Positions 30,455 through 38,228 of a stretch of DNA of 64,000 nucleotides are shown piece by piece. Made by a program: the position numbers and the translations under genes. Under the pieces are notes generated by a model that was given only the letters and a program-made list of their open reading frames with translations, was not told where the DNA came from and did no database searches. Numbering within the stretch: the stretch's first letter is position 1; each line of letters opens with the position of its first letter. The DNA comes from Sphaerochaeta sp. (GTDB lineage: Bacteria; Spirochaetota; Spirochaetia; Sphaerochaetales; Sphaerochaetaceae), in assembly GCA_022482495.1 (NCBI GenBank), contig JAKVPA010000006.1:1-64000 (forward strand). Reading direction: 5' to 3'.

Positions 30455-31010
30455 CGGCTGGAAGTTCAAGGACCGCAAGAGCGTGGTGGTGACGATCGTC
30501 GTCATCGTCGCGCTCCTGTCCGCCCTCACCTGGGCGGAATATGAGATGAGGAAGAACGCTGTGGAGAAAACCCACAGGGAAGCAAGCGCCGCGTGGGATC
30601 AACTGGGGTCGGAAATGGACGAACGGTTCACCTGGGCGGAAAACCTCTGCCGTGTGGTGGATGACACGGCGCGGACCGGCGATGCGTTGGCCGCGATCTC
30701 ATTGTATCGTTCCGATCCCAGGACTCCCCTGGTGGTCAGCAAGGCCTACAACCAGCTGGATGCCGCGCTGACCCAAATGCAGAAAGCATTGTTCGGAACT
30801 GACCATTACCGGGAATTCCAACCGTATTTTGAGAAACTTGGGGAAATTGAAACGGAATTGGATACACTGGTGGCGGACTATCAGGGTAAGGCGGAAGCCT
30901 ACAACCGCACCATCACCGGCCGGGGGTTCGCCCCCCGTATTGCCGCCCAGCGGAATCTTACTCCGCTGGAGCTTCTTTCCGTGAACGCCGCGCTGGCGAA
31001 CCGTCCTTGA
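30444..31010 (+). CDS. LemA-like membrane-anchored protein
   Basis: 188 residues. One N-terminal transmembrane helix (VVVTIVVIVALLSALTW, about 14-30), then a helical bundle with LemA-like order: EASAAWDQLGSEMDERFTWA, YREFQPYFEKLGEIETEL and YQGKAEAYNRTITG before a C-terminal PLELL. LemA proteins have no settled function. The start is uncertain: TTG 30444 has AAAGGA ahead and overlaps the arcC stop by eleven bases; a GTG ~14 codons later is possible. The 3' end overlaps the convergent DUF4105 gene by 53 bases. Confidence 0.68.
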   Translation: MSPDGWKFKDRKSVVVTIVVIVALLSALTWAEYEMRKNAVEKTHREASAAWDQLGSEMDERFTWAENLCRVVDDTARTGDALAAISLYRSDPRTPLVVSKAYNQLDAALTQMQKALFGTDHYREFQPYFEKLGEIETELDTLVADYQGKAEAYNRTITGRGFAPRIAAQRNLTPLELLSVNAALANRP

Positions 31011-32238
31011 AAAATCCGGTTGTGTAGACAGGAAGGCAGAGAAGCAGGGTTTTCAGGGAATCCTGGGAAAGCCAATCAGGGAACAAGCCTTTGAGGATCA
31101 GCAACCCCAACGTGATGATGGCCATCACCCGGAGGAACGCACCCGACCGCCTGGGATGGTGGAACACCCAGAACGCGGGAAGAAACAGAAGCGGATTGAC
31201 GACCAACAGTGATTCGTTGAACCACGTGACGTCGAGGTCGGAAAAGCAGACGGCATAGCAGAGGATCGTCCCGCACACCCCCAAGACCAGCAACAGCAGG
31301 AAATTCCAGGCTTTCCCCAAACCCTTCCATCCATTCCGCCAGAACAGCCAGGTGATGGCCGCGAGCAACAGACCGAACAGGAATGACCAGATGTCGTTGG
31401 ATACCGGGGTATGGCTTGGCGTGAAGGGGATCACACTCCGGTCCTGCTCCTGATGGACGATGCGCTGAGCGCCAAGAGGGGCGTATTCTTGGATGGCGTC
31501 GCCAAGACGATCTGGCAGGAACATCTGTTCCCACAATGAGATGGGTTGGTCGACTTCCGGCCCTTGGAGATAGTTCAGCATCCAGCTGGTGAAGAACGAA
31601 TGGCCCAGGTATCGCTCCGCCCAGGAACGGTAGGTCCCTTCCACCGGCTGCGTTTTCGCCCATCGTTGGAAATCCCCGCCGGTCGCGGCGTCGATGATGT
31701 CCCTCAGCCGGGTGGCGCAGTTGTCCTTGTAGAAGTGGTACAGGTAGGTGTTGTTCTCTTCCAACGCGTTCCGCTTAAGGAATTCCATGATCTGGTACTT
31801 CGCCTGTGGGGGAAGGTCAAGCCGGTACTCGACGACGCTCCGTCCTCCTTCCATTTCCAGTTCCAACCGCCAGTCGGCGTCCGTCGCCCAGATGTTGTAC
31901 AGCATCCGGCCTCGGATGAAGTTCCAGTAGAAGCCCTTCTGCTGGGTGTCGAACACCCCGTAATCGTACATGACGCCGTGGCCGCCTGGCTGCCATACCA
32001 CGATGGCGGCATGTCCGAACCAGGAATACAACGGTTTCTCCGGGCCCATGATGATGATGGATATCTCTGTTTTCTCCGCCCAATCCTCAAGCTCTCCGGT
32101 CAAGGGAGTAGTGAAATCGTGCCGGGCAAGTTCTTTTTGGCTGTCGAATGGCTGGACGGGGGAAGAGCCGGTAAGGCTCAGCGCCGAGAGGGGGAAGGAG
32201 AGGATGGACAGAAGCACCAGCAGACGGAGAGGTTTCAT
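30958..32238 (-). CDS. DUF4105 membrane protein, Lnb-like
   Basis: 426 residues. A signal sequence (MKPLRLLVLLSILSFPLSA) leads into a DUF4105 domain with conserved His in LYSWFGHAAIVVWQPGG, MYDYGVFDTQQKGFYWNFIRG, and the Cys in FYKDNCATRLRDIIDAATGG. Five or so transmembrane helices follow, and a basic tail. DUF4105 proteins of Bacteroides (Lnb) are reported as lipoprotein N-acyltransferases with a His/Cys active site, so that role is a reasonable guess. ATG 32238 lies seven bases after TATGCT; a second ATG is at 32250. Confidence 0.78.
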   Translation of the reverse strand: MKPLRLLVLLSILSFPLSALSLTGSSPVQPFDSQKELARHDFTTPLTGELEDWAEKTEISIIIMGPEKPLYSWFGHAAIVVWQPGGHGVMYDYGVFDTQQKGFYWNFIRGRMLYNIWATDADWRLELEMEGGRSVVEYRLDLPPQAKYQIMEFLKRNALEENNTYLYHFYKDNCATRLRDIIDAATGGDFQRWAKTQPVEGTYRSWAERYLGHSFFTSWMLNYLQGPEVDQPISLWEQMFLPDRLGDAIQEYAPLGAQRIVHQEQDRSVIPFTPSHTPVSNDIWSFLFGLLLAAITWLFWRNGWKGLGKAWNFLLLLVLGVCGTILCYAVCFSDLDVTWFNESLLVVNPLLFLPAFWVFHHPRRSGAFLRVMAIITLGLLILKGLFPDWLSQDSLKTLLLCLPVYTTGFFKDGSPARRSRKEAPAE

Positions 32239-32249
32239 CCGCCTCAGCA

Positions 32250-32278
32250 TAGCACCCCAGGGACGAATGTTCTATACT
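32250..32278 (+). promoter_or_regulatory. Promoter of recO, predicted leaderless
   Basis: TAGCAC, 17 bases, TATACT, seven bases, then the recO ATG. No ribosome-binding sequence lies between. The -35 overlaps the likely -10 (TATGCT) of the divergent DUF4105 gene. Confidence 0.5.
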
Positions 32279-32285
32279 TGCAAAC

Positions 32286-33032
32286 ATGGAACGAAATGTC
32301 ATCACCCAGGGGATTGTTCTTTCCAGCGTCCGTTCCGGCACGGTGGACCGGACGCTCCGGATCCTCTCTGAGGATCTCGGGGTGATCGACGTGCGCAATT
32401 ACGGAGCGAGAAAAGCGAACAAAGCGGTAAAGGCGGAAGTCTCCACCGAGGGGACATTCTATCTGTACGTCAACCCAGTCAAGCATTCCTATACGTTGAC
32501 GGATATTGCCATCCGTTCCATGCATGAGACGCTTCGCCAGGACTTGTCAACGACATACACGGCGTTGTTCTTCTCCGAATTCATCCTGAAGACCAACGGA
32601 GGCGACTGGGGGGCGACGTACCAGTTGCTCTCCCAGGCGCTTGGAGCGCTGGAGGATCCTGTCGTCAACAAGGTCCAATGCGTGATCCAGTTCATCTGGG
32701 CGATGATCGGCATCCTTGGGCTCCGGCCGGACCTGGACCGGTGTCCGGTCTGCGACTCTCCGTACGGACAAGACGAAATCCTCGGGTTTTCCTGGCAGCT
32801 TACTGCCCCTTGTTGCCTGAAATGTGCTACAGTGAAGGACGACATGCTGCTTCCTCCCGGCGCCCGCCGGTATTTGTCCGTCACCGCACCGATGCCCTTT
32901 GGCTCGGCGGTGCATGTGGACCTCAACCCTGGGACGCGGGAGCGGATCAAACGGTACATGTTGCGGTACGCCGTCCTGGTGGCGGGCGAACTGAAGACGC
33001 TGGATGGCCCGGTCCTCCAGACAATGACGTAG
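32286..33032 (+). CDS. recO: DNA repair protein RecO
   Basis: Loads RecA with RecR at gaps. 248 residues: an OB fold (ITQGIVLSSVRSGTVDRTLRI), a helical bundle, and a zinc module with CPVC and CCLKCA. The start ATG has no Shine-Dalgarno and follows a -10 box closely. recJ begins 26 bases after its stop, so two recombination-repair genes are paired. Confidence 0.9.
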   Translation: MERNVITQGIVLSSVRSGTVDRTLRILSEDLGVIDVRNYGARKANKAVKAEVSTEGTFYLYVNPVKHSYTLTDIAIRSMHETLRQDLSTTYTALFFSEFILKTNGGDWGATYQLLSQALGALEDPVVNKVQCVIQFIWAMIGILGLRPDLDRCPVCDSPYGQDEILGFSWQLTAPCCLKCATVKDDMLLPPGARRYLSVTAPMPFGSAVHVDLNPGTRERIKRYMLRYAVLVAGELKTLDGPVLQTMT

Positions 33033-33058: not shown

Positions 33059-35212
33059 ATGCAATGGAAAAAGAGTCCGGTCTCTCCCAAGGAGGTCAGG
33101 AATCTGCATGAGCGGTACAACGTGTCCCTGCTCAGCGCGGCGATTCTGGCCAGACGGGGGATTTCCGGCCGTAATGATGTGAAGTTCTTTTTGGAAAATG
33201 ATCTTTCGTTCCTCCACAATCCGTTCCTGTTTGATGATATGGAAACGGTGGTGGATCGTATCCAGTCGGCGCTTGACGAGAAGGAGAAGATCCGGGTCTT
33301 CGGGGACCGGGACGTGGACGGCATCACCAGTACGGCGTTGCTTGTCTCCGAACTCTCGTCGATGGGGGCGGATGTCTCCTATAAATTGCCGGAAGGGGAC
33401 GAACCGTACGGCATGACCATCGCCGGGGTGGACCAGGCGATGGAGGACGGGGTCACCCTGATCATCACGGTGGACTGCGGCATCTCCAATTTTGATGAGA
33501 TCGCCCACGCCTCGGAATGTGGCATCGACACGCTGGTGCTGGACCACCACCTTTCCGACGACAAACTGCCTGCCGCCATGGCGATCATCGACCCCAAGGT
33601 ACAGGGCTCAGGATACCCGTTCGAGCACCTGGCCGCCTGCGGGGTGGTGTCCAAGGTGATCTGGGCCCTGCGTTTCGCACAGACGCCGTTCTACCATGAG
33701 AACTGCATTTTGCTGCATGCCCAACCCGGGAACGGGACCGTCCTGATCCAGGCGGTGCGCCTGGAGAATCTGATGGAGATCGACCGGGTGAGGGAAGAGA
33801 TCAACCCCGGGGTGGTCGACCTTGCTTCCAGCAAGGCGATCCAGTTCCTTACGGGAAACGTTCCGGTGCTGGTGCTGGACAGCCAAATGGAAACCAACCA
33901 GCTTCGGGAAGCGTTTGGAAAGAAAGTGGAGATTTCCCTGGTGGATATGCGAGGGGAAATGGAGAAGGCGCTTCCCATGATCAAAGGCAAGAGCCTGTTC
34001 ACCCTTTCGACGATCAGCCGCACCAGCCGGTACACCGACCATGGTCGGGACGAGATGGAGACGTTGTACAGCCTGTTCGCCTCATACGTGCGCAAACGAT
34101 GCCCGTCGCTGGACAAAGACTATGAGAAGATCCTTGATCTTGTGGCCATCGGGACGGTGGCCGACCTGATGCCGATGATCGATGAGAACCGTATTCTTGT
34201 CCGTCGTGGCATCAAGATGCTGCAGACTTCCTGCCGGCCCTCCCTGGTGCCGCTGATGACGATGCAGAACCTCAACGGAAGAGAGCTGACCAGCCAGAAC
34301 ATTTCCTGGCAGTTGGCTCCGGTCCTCAATTCCGCAGGCCGGATGGGACAGCCCAAGGTCGCCGTAGACATGCTGCTCGCCCCGGACGTCGCGACCGCGG
34401 AGACCTACGCCATGCAACTGGAGAACCTGAACAAGCAGCGCCAGAAACTGGGGGAGGACGCGTGGGAGCGGCTCACGCCGCTGGCCAACGAGAGCATGGA
34501 GAAAAGCGGTTCGAAGATCGTCGTCATCGAGGATCCCAAGATGGCCCGTGGCATCACCGGCCTGATGGCCAGCCGCCTGCTCAAAAAGTATGGGGTTCCG
34601 TCGCTGGTCATCGCCGATGTCGGCGACCGCGTCAGCGCCTCGATCCGTTCTCCGGAAGGATTCAACAGCCGTGATTTCCTCTCCAATTTCGCCGACCTGT
34701 TCAGCGATTTCGGCGGACACGCCTGCGCAGGAGGTTTCTCCATGGTGAAGGAGAATCTTCCCGTGCTGCGCAAGCGTATGGAAGACGTGGTTGACCAGAT
34801 GGACTGCCAGCCGGAAGAAGAGGAGAACCTGTCCATCGATTGTTCGCTGCCCGCCAATTACCTCACTCCGGAAATCATCAAGGAAGTGGAGTTCTTCGAG
34901 CCGTATGGGGAACAGAACCCCCAGATCGTCTTCTCCATCGACGGCGCCCACGTGGAAGACCTGATGTACATGAAGAATTCCCATGGAGAGGACCAACATG
35001 TGAAGGTGACGCTTCGTTACGGGCAGTACAAATGGCCTGCGGTCTATTGGTTCGCCTCCGCGAAAGTAGGCAAGGAGTTCGACAAAGGGGATACGGTGGA
35101 CGTGGCGTTCCGCATTTCGCGCAACTACTTCCGCCAGCAGTCCTCGCTGCAGTTGACCGTACTGGACATGAAACGGAGCGAAGGATCATCCATCGCCGCC
35201 GCGCTCTCTTGA
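33059..35212 (+). CDS. recJ: Single-stranded-DNA exonuclease RecJ with large internal insert
   Basis: 5'-3' ssDNA exonuclease, 717 residues. DHH motifs: [14 protein letters not shown] (motif I, normally DYDADG), [17 protein letters not shown] (motif III), then [20 protein letters not shown] (motif IV) only after an extra ~135 residues (about 215-350) that RecJ proteins normally lack. The DHHA1 part has [21 protein letters not shown] and the [11 protein letters not shown] motif, followed by the OB domain. The frame is open upstream into recO, but the homology starts at MQWKKSPV with AAGG eight bases before. Confidence 0.92.
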
Positions 35213-35639: not shown

Positions 35640-35649
35640 TTCCATGGGT

Positions 35650-35662
35650 GGGGAAATTCCCC
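35650..35662 (+). promoter_or_regulatory. Candidate operator in the serA leader
   Basis: Perfect palindrome GGGGAAATTCCCC centred about 17 bases after the -10 box, in the early transcribed region. A repressor bound here would block serA-serC. The Lrp-type regulator after serC is an obvious candidate. Confidence 0.4.
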
Positions 35663-35692
35663 TTACCAATCAAATTCCAAAGGAAGGTAACC

Positions 35693-36580
35693 ATGCTGAT
35701 TCTGTTGTGTGACGCGTTCGACGCTTCAATGCCCAGGAAATTGGAGCGTTTCGGGGAAGTGACCAGCGACATGGCGCGTCTCGGGGAAGCCGAGGTCGTG
35801 TTGGTGCGGAGCAAAACGAAATGTACCCGTGAATTCATCGACAAGGCTCCGAAGCTCAAGCTGATCATCCGGGGAGGGGTCGGGATCGACAACATCGACA
35901 AGGCGTATGCCGAAAGCAAAGGGATCATCGTGCACAACACCCCGAAGTCCTCAGCGATCGCCGTCGCCGAATTGACGTTCTCCCTGATGCTTTCCGTACC
36001 CAACCATCTTCTGCGTTACCACAACGGACTGAAGGAAGGGCAGTGGCTGAAGAAGGAAAAACGGACGGAGCTGTACGGGAAGACGCTCTGCCTGTTCGGA
36101 ATCGGACACATCGGCAGTGAGGTCGCCCTGCGGGCCAAGGCGTTCGGGATGAACGTCGTCGCCTATGACAGGAACAAAAACAAGACAAGCCCGTATGCGA
36201 CCATCGTCGCGAGCCCCGAGGTCGCGGTGAAGGATGCTGACTATATTTCGCTGCACATACCACTCACCGATGAGACCCGTGGGATGATCAACAAGACATT
36301 GCTGGACCATTGCGAGAAGAAGCCGGTGGTGATCAACACCTGCAGGGCGCTGGTGGTCAACGAGGCGGACATGATCGAGATGCTGCACAGCGGGCAGGTT
36401 GCATGGTACTGCACCGATGTCTGGCCGAGTGATCCTCCCGCGGCGGATGACCCGCTGTTGAAGGAAGAGCATGTGACGTTCACTCCGCATGTGGGAGCGA
36501 ACAGCGAGGAGAACCTGCTGAGGATCGGAAATGAGACGTGTGATTTGCTTGAACAATTTCAGAAGGAGGGAAAAATCTGA
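35693..36580 (+). CDS. serA: D-isomer 2-hydroxyacid dehydrogenase, probable phosphoglycerate dehydrogenase
   Basis: First step of serine synthesis, oxidising 3-phosphoglycerate. 295 residues, the short form without a C-terminal ACT domain. Signatures: LIIRGGVGIDNIDKAYAESKG, the Rossmann LCLFGIGHIGSEVALRAKAFGM, VINTCRALVVNEADMI (catalytic Arg), and FTPHVGANSEENLLRIG (catalytic His). AAGGAAGG precedes ATG 35693. Its stop overlaps the serC start (TGATG), which strongly supports PGDH over other hydroxyacid substrates. Confidence 0.92.
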   Translation: MLILLCDAFDASMPRKLERFGEVTSDMARLGEAEVVLVRSKTKCTREFIDKAPKLKLIIRGGVGIDNIDKAYAESKGIIVHNTPKSSAIAVAELTFSLMLSVPNHLLRYHNGLKEGQWLKKEKRTELYGKTLCLFGIGHIGSEVALRAKAFGMNVVAYDRNKNKTSPYATIVASPEVAVKDADYISLHIPLTDETRGMINKTLLDHCEKKPVVINTCRALVVNEADMIEMLHSGQVAWYCTDVWPSDPPAADDPLLKEEHVTFTPHVGANSEENLLRIGNETCDLLEQFQKEGKI

Positions 36581-37668
36581 TGGCACGCAAGAAAATCTTT
36601 TTCGCCGGCCCGTCCGTGTTGCCGGTTGAAGTATTGGAACAACTGAGGGACCAGCTGGTCGATTACCAGGGCAAAGGCCTTTCCATGCTGGAAGCCAGCC
36701 ACCGGGGTGGCATGTTCGAGGAGATGTACGACCAGTGTCTGGCGACGATCCGCGACGTGTACCACATTCCTGAGGATTACGACGTGTACTTCCTGGGAGG
36801 CGGCGCGACGCTGCAGTTCACCATGATTCCGATGAACTTCCTCAAACCGGGTACGGTGGCTGATTACCTGAAGAGTGGCACCTGGTCCAATAAAGCGGTT
36901 GCCGACGCCCAGAAGCTGGGAAAGGTCAACCTGTATTTTGATGGTACCGAAGGGAAATACACGACGCTCCCCGATCCCAAGACGGTGCGTCCTTCTTCTC
37001 CGGCTTCCAGTTATCTGTACCTCTGCTCCAACGAAACGATCGGAGGCATCGAGTGGCAGTCGTTCCCTGAGTATCAGGAGGATGTTCCGATGATCGCCGA
37101 CATGTCCAGCGATTTCTTCTCCCGCCCAGTTCCTGTGGAGCGTTTCTCCATGATCTACGGTGGTGTCCAGAAGAATCTCGGACCGGCCGGCGCCACGTTG
37201 ATCATCATGAAGAAGTCACTGCTGGAGCGGCAGAACCCCAACATGACGGCGTACATGGATTACAAACTCCACGCCAAGGACAAGGGGTTGTACAACACGC
37301 CACCGGTATTCTCCATCTGGGCGGTGAGTCTGGTGATGGATTGGATCAAGAAGAACGGCGGCGTGGAAGCGATGGAGAAGCGCGCCATTGAGAAGAGCTC
37401 GATGGTGTACCAGGTCATCGATTCCAGTCCGTTCTGGAGATGCCCGGTGGACAAGAAGGTCCGCAGCCGGATGAACGTCGTCTTCCGTCTTCCCAGTGAA
37501 GAACTGGAGGCGAAATTCGTCGAGGAATCCAAAGCGGCCGGCATGCTTGGACTGAAGGGCCATCGAAGCGTGGGAGGCCTCAGGGCAAGCCTGTACAACG
37601 CCTGCCCGAAGGAAGACGTCGTCGCGCTTTGCGAGTTCATGAAGGATTTTGAACGACGGAACGGCTGA
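36580..37668 (+). CDS. serC: Phosphoserine aminotransferase
   Basis: PLP enzyme for the second step of serine synthesis. 362 residues. FFAGPSVLPVEVLEQLRDQL, GKGLSMLEASHRGGMFEEM, VYFLGGGATLQFTMIPMNF, and the Schiff-base lysine in YGGVQKNLGPAGATL. The C-terminal GHRSVGGLRASLYNACP motif is standard. Translationally coupled to serA. No phosphoserine phosphatase is seen. Confidence 0.96.
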   Translation: MARKKIFFAGPSVLPVEVLEQLRDQLVDYQGKGLSMLEASHRGGMFEEMYDQCLATIRDVYHIPEDYDVYFLGGGATLQFTMIPMNFLKPGTVADYLKSGTWSNKAVADAQKLGKVNLYFDGTEGKYTTLPDPKTVRPSSPASSYLYLCSNETIGGIEWQSFPEYQEDVPMIADMSSDFFSRPVPVERFSMIYGGVQKNLGPAGATLIIMKKSLLERQNPNMTAYMDYKLHAKDKGLYNTPPVFSIWAVSLVMDWIKKNGGVEAMEKRAIEKSSMVYQVIDSSPFWRCPVDKKVRSRMNVVFRLPSEELEAKFVEESKAAGMLGLKGHRSVGGLRASLYNACPKEDVVALCEFMKDFERRNG

Positions 37669-37679
37669 TAGAGGGAAAT

Positions 37680-37701
37680 GTGCGGCGGATTTCCGCCGCA
37701 C
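37680..37701 (+). promoter_or_regulatory. Inverted repeat between serC and the Lrp-type gene
   Basis: Ten-base perfect arms GTGCGGCGGA/TCCGCCGCAC around TT. No T tract follows, so it is not a normal terminator. It may act as an mRNA 3' stabiliser, attenuator or protein site. Confidence 0.5.
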
Positions 37702-37769
37702 CTGTCAGCCTGGATGGAGAGAACATGTGAAGGAGGAAAGCCCGCCTCAGAGCGGTGGGCGGAATGCTC

Positions 37770-38228
37770 ATGAAAACAAAAATGGACGATACCAACAAGG
37801 CGATCATCCAGCAACTTTCTTCCGATGGAAGGAAAGCCTTTTCCTCAATCAGCGAAGAGCTGGGAATAACGGAAAACACCGTACGCACCCGGGTTTCGAA
37901 GCTGGTCGCAGACCAGACGATGCAGATCACCAGTCTGGTGAATCCCGAAGCGCTTCCCGGCTCCCAGGTCGTTTTCATGGGGGTGAAGCTTTCCACGCTG
38001 GATCTGGAAAGGAAGGCGAAGGAGTTTTTCAAACTGCGCGGTGTGATGAACGTGGTTGTCGTCACCGGGCGGTATGATTTGATCGTCCAGGTATTGCTTT
38101 CCGAAGAGGAAGGTCTGTCCCTGTTGGATTTCTTCAAAAAGGAACTGGACAATATCACGGAGATCGCTGATGTGGAGACGTTCGTGGTGTACCAGTCCCA
38201 CAATTACTGGATACCGTATATCCTGTAA
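37770..38228 (+). CDS. Lrp/AsnC-family transcriptional regulator
   Basis: 152 residues. N-terminal winged helix-turn-helix (MDDTNKAIIQQLSSDGRKAF, ISEELGITENTVRTRVSKLV), then a RAM ligand-binding domain (LERKAKEFFKLRGVMNVVVV, TGRYDLIVQVLL). Such proteins bind amino acids and control their metabolism, and its place after serA-serC suggests it senses an amino acid of that pathway. Start chosen as ATG 37770 after GGCGGA; in-frame GTG 37755 and ATG 37764 are alternatives. Confidence 0.88.
   Translation: MKTKMDDTNKAIIQQLSSDGRKAFSSISEELGITENTVRTRVSKLVADQTMQITSLVNPEALPGSQVVFMGVKLSTLDLERKAKEFFKLRGVMNVVVVTGRYDLIVQVLLSEEEGLSLLDFFKKELDNITEIADVETFVVYQSHNYWIPYIL

Follow-up and report, generated by a model that had tools for sequence, protein, structure and literature searches.

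The recJ gene of a Sphaerochaeta species raises the question of what a large extra segment is doing inside the catalytic domain of a well-known nuclease. In textbooks RecJ figures as the 5'-3' nuclease that serves the RecF pathway, mismatch repair, and base excision repair; it is also the bacterial relative of eukaryotic Cdc45. The gene lies in the window, i.e., the whole stretch of 64,000 nucleotides that was analysed (positions 1 to 64,000 of contig JAKVPA010000006.1, assembly GCA_022482495.1). An earlier note on this DNA had described an insert of about 135 residues between DHH motifs that are normally near neighbours, a folded-looking segment of strands and helices at the edge of the active site which could gate substrate or bind a partner. 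The reading developed here, held with good confidence, is that the insert represents a 3'-5' exonuclease domain of the DnaQ type (DEDDh, RNase H-like), placed between motifs III and IV in an ancestor of the Spirochaetota and Elusimicrobiota RecJs, and that its catalytic residues were lost in the lineage of the window.

The recJ gene and its extra domain

The recJ product scored 526.5 bits against TIGR00644, for which the curated cut-off is 396.9, and is a member of the RecJ family by score. Residues D83, D85, D87, D139, H163, and D369 were found to be invariant across 35 aligned RecJs. The RecJ metal-binding set (the three Asp of motif I, the Asp of motif II, the His of motif III, and the Asp of motif IV) is complete in the window's protein, and the roles of these residues are described in PMC4846377. 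Judged by its residues, this RecJ should have a working 5'-3' site and a nested 3'-5' site that does not work. The full-length AF2 model was confident almost everywhere (pLDDT 92.5, pTM 0.91) and superposed on S. aureus RecJ with Z 40.1 over 550 residues. Because two fusion proteins (L063 and L064) were present in its alignment, this model gives no independent proof of the insert fold. The insert was also predicted alone, from 17 Spirochaetia sequences with the intact fusions left out, and again the fold was confident (pLDDT 86.9, pTM 0.83), with the strand and helix order of DnaQ.

Table 1. Features of the recO-recJ locus; residue numbers refer to the recJ product.
Feature	Position	Strand	Basis
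recO, 26 bases upstream of recJ	32286..33032	+	Pfam RecO_C 1.4e-9, RecO_N 1.8e-4
recJ, 717 aa, stop codon included, ATG at 33059	33059..35212	+	TIGR00644
DHH domain, first part, residues 61-204, motifs I-III	33239..33670	+	Pfam DHH 77-204; model
Motif I DRDVDG, residues 83-88, Arg replacing the canonical RecJ Tyr/Phe	33305..33322	+	
Motif III DHH, residues 162-164	33542..33550	+	
Insert, residues 206-358, probable degenerate DnaQ/DEDDh exonuclease domain	33674..34132	+	AF2, structural matches, profile match
Insert core, about residues 215-347	33701-34099	+	
Motif IV GTVAD, residues 365-369, immediately 3' of the insert	34151..34165	+	
DHHA1 domain, residues 486-578	34514..34792	+	Pfam
RecJ OB domain (RecJ_OB), residues 593-703	34835..35167	+	Pfam

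At the insert site the window's RecJ has 152-154 residues (152 between WALRF and LDLVAIGT, 207-358), compared with 8-32 in canonical, insert-less RecJs of other phyla, and the spacing from DHH to GTVAD is 202 residues versus about 62 normally. The net excess, about 140 residues, agrees with the size first proposed. RecJs from the PDB align to the window's protein as two blocks, the first ending at 204 and the second starting at 357 in the two alignments shown. In the model the segment is folded as had been supposed (strand 270-272, helix 275-286, strand 294-296, helix 298-304). In the prediction it hangs from two helices, 193-206 on one side and the motif IV helix (359-368) on the other; the latter helix runs to the metal ligand D369.

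This geometry bears on the suggestion that the insert is a gate through which DNA would have to pass to reach the active site of RecJ. The predicted anchor is the start of the motif IV helix, about 10 residues before D369, as a gate might require; however, this is the end of the helix far from that ligand, and a gate is considered unlikely. Such a role would overlap with the reading of the insert as a DnaQ-type domain and would not exclude it. Binding of a partner, the other role suggested, is possible. A RecO match was found in 38 of 50 Spirochaetia recJ loci, and recO and recJ are therefore probably one operon in Spirochaetia. As a general partner of the insert, RecO is weakened and would be one partner at most, because Borrelia-type RecJs (L080) retain the insert although, according to PMC2779866, recO is missing from B. 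burgdorferi. Adjoining recO, a membrane protein with Lnb_N periplasmic and Lnb transmembrane domains is encoded on the minus strand (30958-32250). At 35648-38228 (plus strand), a 2-hydroxyacid dehydrogenase, a class-V aminotransferase, and an AsnC/Lrp-type regulator follow one another by Pfam, which looks like serine synthesis plus a regulator.

RecJ was present in 382 of the 392 genomes covered by a phylum-wide search, and among the matches listed, members of the window's class matched the query, with its insert, over almost the full length. In 190 aligned RecJs, with the count starting at the R of WALRF, the segment had at least 90 residues in 126 proteins, 40-89 in five, and fewer than 40 in 59. 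Partial, duplicate, or unrelated sequences (L049, L050, L061, L062, L120, L138, L181, and L194) and anything below 380 residues were excluded before the length comparison, and L218, L234, L236, and L237 before the alignment of 190; one RecJ fetch used 80 of 124 genomes, most of the Brachyspira-like family f29 having been left out beforehand. In Spirochaetia the length of the insert is almost constant at 148-160 residues. Shorter or lost inserts were found in several lineages. One genome of the window's phylum (G033, locus L239) encodes a canonical DYDADG RecJ with no insert and gave a further RecJ-like match on a different contig, either two RecJs or contamination.

Among RecJs whose segment reaches 90 residues or more, the second residue of motif I is R in 93, K in 17, and S in 16, and it is R in all five with 40-89; the 59 short-loop RecJs have Tyr (57), Phe (one), or Lys (one). 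R, K, or S instead of Y or F was thus seen in 126/126 of the long class and in six RecJs with a short segment. In D. radiodurans RecJ the corresponding Tyr, Tyr80, contacts the +1 base as well as the base and sugar of dTMP (PMC4846377). The substitution is read as a mark of the clade, since same-clade RecJs which lost the insert retain R or K, and it proves no mechanical link to the insert.

The earlier note had stated that its finding would fall if the insert were a routine part of RecJ in many phyla. Among the matches listed, the insert was found in 0 of 58 RecJs with Tyr or Phe in motif I, mostly chosen by their similarity to the insert-bearing query, with the other phyla sampled rather than covered exhaustively. 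On this sample a routine RecJ feature is rejected, and the finding therefore stands. The two checks that had been proposed, fold prediction and comparison with other spirochaete RecJs, gave the confident fold described above and a folded extra domain common to spirochaete RecJs. The note was right about such a domain; its DnaQ-type identity and its spread into Elusimicrobiota had been missed.

Intact nested exonucleases and conservation of the decayed domain

In an alignment of diverse spirochaete RecJs, four were found to carry a textbook-looking DnaQ/DEDDh exonuclease at the exact site of the insert. Pfam RNase_T matched between the two DHH parts in four of five proteins tested (L041, 2.5e-31; L051, 9.7e-36; L052, 7.6e-32; L055, 1e-28), and the fifth, L058, taken as Brachyspira-like, had no RNase_T match. 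A scan of named genomes extended this beyond the spirochaetes. Among the matches listed, the RecJ of an Elusimicrobia MAG (L063, CG06) matched L041 along its entire length, and in a second Elusimicrobia RecJ, L064, the nested domain was partly degenerate. Additional RecJs of this kind were found in a search of 198 Elusimicrobiota genomes. Adjoining L064 in the RecJ tree is L209, an Elusimicrobiota RecJ with 22 residues at the site and Lys in motif I, which seems to have lost the nested domain entirely.

All five DEDDh residues were read in 29 of the 126 inserts, 11 from Spirochaetota and 18 from Elusimicrobiota. These counts come from an hmmalign read-out which is unreliable for fully decayed inserts, and values below five are therefore lower bounds. 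With an RNase_T match in the four above and the five residues in place in 29, the nested domain of these relatives has the sequence expected of an active exonuclease. Among solved structures, the Elusimicrobia domain is closest to the PolC-type exonuclease 2p1j (E 9.1e-35). An assembly artefact is ruled out by the intact fusions in 29 sequences from two phyla, one of them in a single-contig genome (G026). A phage origin was likewise rejected, as 0 of 306 matching phage records cover 80% of the Elusimicrobia fusion.

Alternatively, the insert of the window could be a functionless DnaQ remnant that is drifting away. Inserts were shortened or lost in several lineages, and mean identity within Spirochaetia is lowest in the insert (0.34, compared with 0.55 for DHH, 0.37 for DHHA1, and 0.39 for OB), both as a remnant would predict. 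Selection does not fit, however. For three closely related pairs of Spirochaetia RecJs with decayed inserts, dN/dS for the insert and for the rest was 0.034/0.027, 0.040/0.058, and 0.072/0.070, the last pair being the two genus mates of the window; between such close relatives, purifying selection on the dead domain is comparable to that on the remainder of RecJ. These values derive from 14 hand-chosen pairs, of which four yielded no dS that could be used for the insert; in pairs that include the window (insert 0.24 and 0.18; rest 0.22 and 0.21) dS exceeds 1, making the estimates unsure. The nearly constant length in Spirochaetia (148-160 residues) and the confident AF2 fold also speak against drift, and a functionless remnant is considered quite improbable. 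Positive charge that might hint at DNA binding was not seen in the window's insert, whose net charge is -1.

Descent and catalytic state of the window's domain

Structural comparison placed the window's insert among known folds. When candidates from Foldseek were aligned with VIA-align, 26 chains reached Z of at least 8, and among the matches listed all were DEDD-type nucleases if the RNaseH domain of ESRP1 and one chain from a Maelstrom-containing complex are counted as DnaQ-like. The best match was the S. aureus DinG domain (Z 10.3, 4.7 A over 142 residues), followed by PolC (9.8), ExoI (9.7), and Pol III epsilon (9.6), and further down by ExoX (8.9), RNase T (8.3), 3'hExo (8.2), and TREX1 (8.1). 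With Z up to 10.3 over 142 residues, the modelled insert would have the DnaQ RNase H-like fold and is, by the model, not a new fold. The E-values of Foldseek itself were weak, the best being 8.8e-3 (MutSbeta) and the best DEDDh row 9.9e-3.

As a single sequence, the window's insert had no match in Pfam (up to E 10), RNase_T included, or in the PDB. Single Spirochaetia inserts mostly had no match to a model of the intact nested domains, and the window's gave E 2.4. When a profile of Spirochaetia inserts was compared with all intact nested domains, shared flanks trimmed, a match was obtained with E 4e-6 over 103 columns. Its score of 40.4 was not equalled in any of 100 column shuffles (maximum 23.3), and a reversed control gave 14.0. 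Against the intact spirochaetal domains the profile aligned in register from the first strand to past the FD motif. Against free DnaQ domains the match was weak (E 0.02-0.03), and the link to DnaQ therefore runs through the nested family. Matches to the intact model also describe a graded decay, from L064 (1e-52) through L195 (2e-19), L200 (4e-11), L058 (8e-8), and L207 (4e-7) to L204 (3e-6).

A RecJ tree was built without the insert columns from 127 rows remaining after identity thinning, 22 of them insert-less rows drawn at random from named genomes. In this quick tree, which has some long branches, a branch with SH-aLRT 99 set the insert-bearing RecJs and their relatives apart, and the Elusimicrobiota formed one group (SH-aLRT 98). 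The states intact, decayed, and none required eight changes on the tree, compared with 41.7 in shuffles. In a tree of exonuclease domains the nested domains were not recovered as one clade, yet such a clade was not rejected (p-AU 0.176). By these sequences, a single acquisition of the exonuclease domain is neither shown nor rejected.

A separate alpha/beta domain that resembles DnaQ in topology only, not by descent, would account for the absence of a sequence-level match between the window's insert and any family and for Foldseek E-values of only about 0.01. It would have to occupy the site that holds intact DnaQ domains in the same RecJ clade, and it would leave unexplained the graded intermediates and a profile match that is in register and far above shuffles. 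Unrelated origin is therefore regarded as highly improbable. The computations establish the fold of the insert, the common site, the intact DEDDh relatives, and the graded intermediates, and descent from a DnaQ-type domain remains the preferred reading.

The window's insert has lost the first-strand DxE motif, its Asp being replaced in the profile alignment by His and its Glu by a gap or Gln; the Asp of the FD motif is retained. DxE was found at the first-strand position in 0 of 50 Spirochaetia inserts examined, with Asp alone in one. Because DxE is replaced in the window and absent from all 50 inserts, a two-metal 3'-5' site in the window's insert is very unlikely, and an active exonuclease is rejected on its residues. 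That the domain is still a nuclease which works with unorthodox residues is scarcely credible, for although the FD position is still Asp and the surroundings of the third motif include His and acidic residues, DxE has been lost in the window (His, with Gln or a gap) as in the 50 inserts examined, and the acidic positions required for two metals are not conserved. Elsewhere in the window's genome, two RNase_T matches with equal scores were found in 482-residue frames on different contigs (G000:C5:185375-185932 and G000:C12:4561-5118), possibly a duplicated assembly stretch.

Known systems and a proposed history

Compared with bacterial RecJ (TIGR00644; D. radiodurans 5f55 and S. aureus 8y30), the window's protein has the same overall domain order and seven recognisable motifs, and differs by the roughly 140 extra residues between motifs III and IV and by Arg in place of Tyr in motif I. 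The insert resembles the DnaQ/DEDDh exonucleases PolC, Pol III epsilon, ExoI, and the DinG domain in fold (Z 9.6-10.3); unlike them, the copy in the window lacks DxE and is nested in another nuclease. PolC offers a parallel in design, its exonuclease being nested in the PHP domain. There, too, a DnaQ domain is inserted in a larger DNA enzyme, but the PolC exonuclease is active and serves proofreading, whereas the host in the window is RecJ and the copy is dead.

Within the RecJ superfamily, Cdc45 and archaeal RecJ/GAN have also gained domains inside the DHH domain. According to the accessible part of PMC5615345, hCdc45 is extended between motifs III and IIIa, and archaeal RecJ and Cdc45 have a partner-binding domain between motifs IV and V; that part does not describe these domains as DnaQ. 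By analogy, a partner role of the insert would have a precedent in these proteins. In Cdc45 it was the RecJ site that died, whereas in the window's RecJ it was the inserted nuclease.

From this, a history can be proposed. An ancestral RecJ would have gained a nested 3'-5' exonuclease and probably became a nuclease of two polarities. Intact fusions may attack ssDNA at either end, the DHH site degrading it 5'-3' and the nested site 3'-5', and this work in one chain would be the role both of the ancestor and of the intact fusions of today. In E. coli mismatch repair, RecJ and ExoVII provide one polarity, and ExoI, ExoX, and ExoVII the other. A single chain of the intact fusions could thus combine two activities that in E. 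coli are divided between RecJ and ExoI/ExoX. Burdett et al. (2001) is cited in the reference list of PMC3942315. The second site would then have died repeatedly, with the domain persisting as a structural, DNA-binding, or partner-binding module and selection on its structure continuing after the loss. The loss of DxE and the purifying selection in close pairs are both computed results. In the window's RecJ, the dead domain may stabilise the DHH domain on its motif IV side and may offer a surface for ssDNA or a repair partner.

In its full extent, the proposal is that part of the RecJs of Spirochaetota and Elusimicrobiota are single-chain exonucleases of two polarities, with a working 3'-5' DnaQ domain nested in a 5'-3' DHH nuclease, and that other spirochaete RecJs, including those of Borrelia and Treponema, are their descendants, in which the second site was inactivated independently and the nuclease, though dead, is retained as a conserved module that binds DNA or a partner. 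This is judged fairly likely.

RecJ and DnaQ are each well known singly. No description of a DnaQ domain in RecJ was found in the open-access literature, where the nested architecture, its spread over two phyla, and its repeated decay appear to be undescribed; Borrelia recJ has been studied, and the accessible parts of that work do not mention a nested domain. If a nuclease of opposite polarity is indeed nested in RecJ, a single protein would take on what otherwise requires two repair exonucleases. The repeated inactivation of the nested site would provide a series made by nature for studying the persistence of a dead nuclease domain, and the reading of the spirochaete recJ gene would change.
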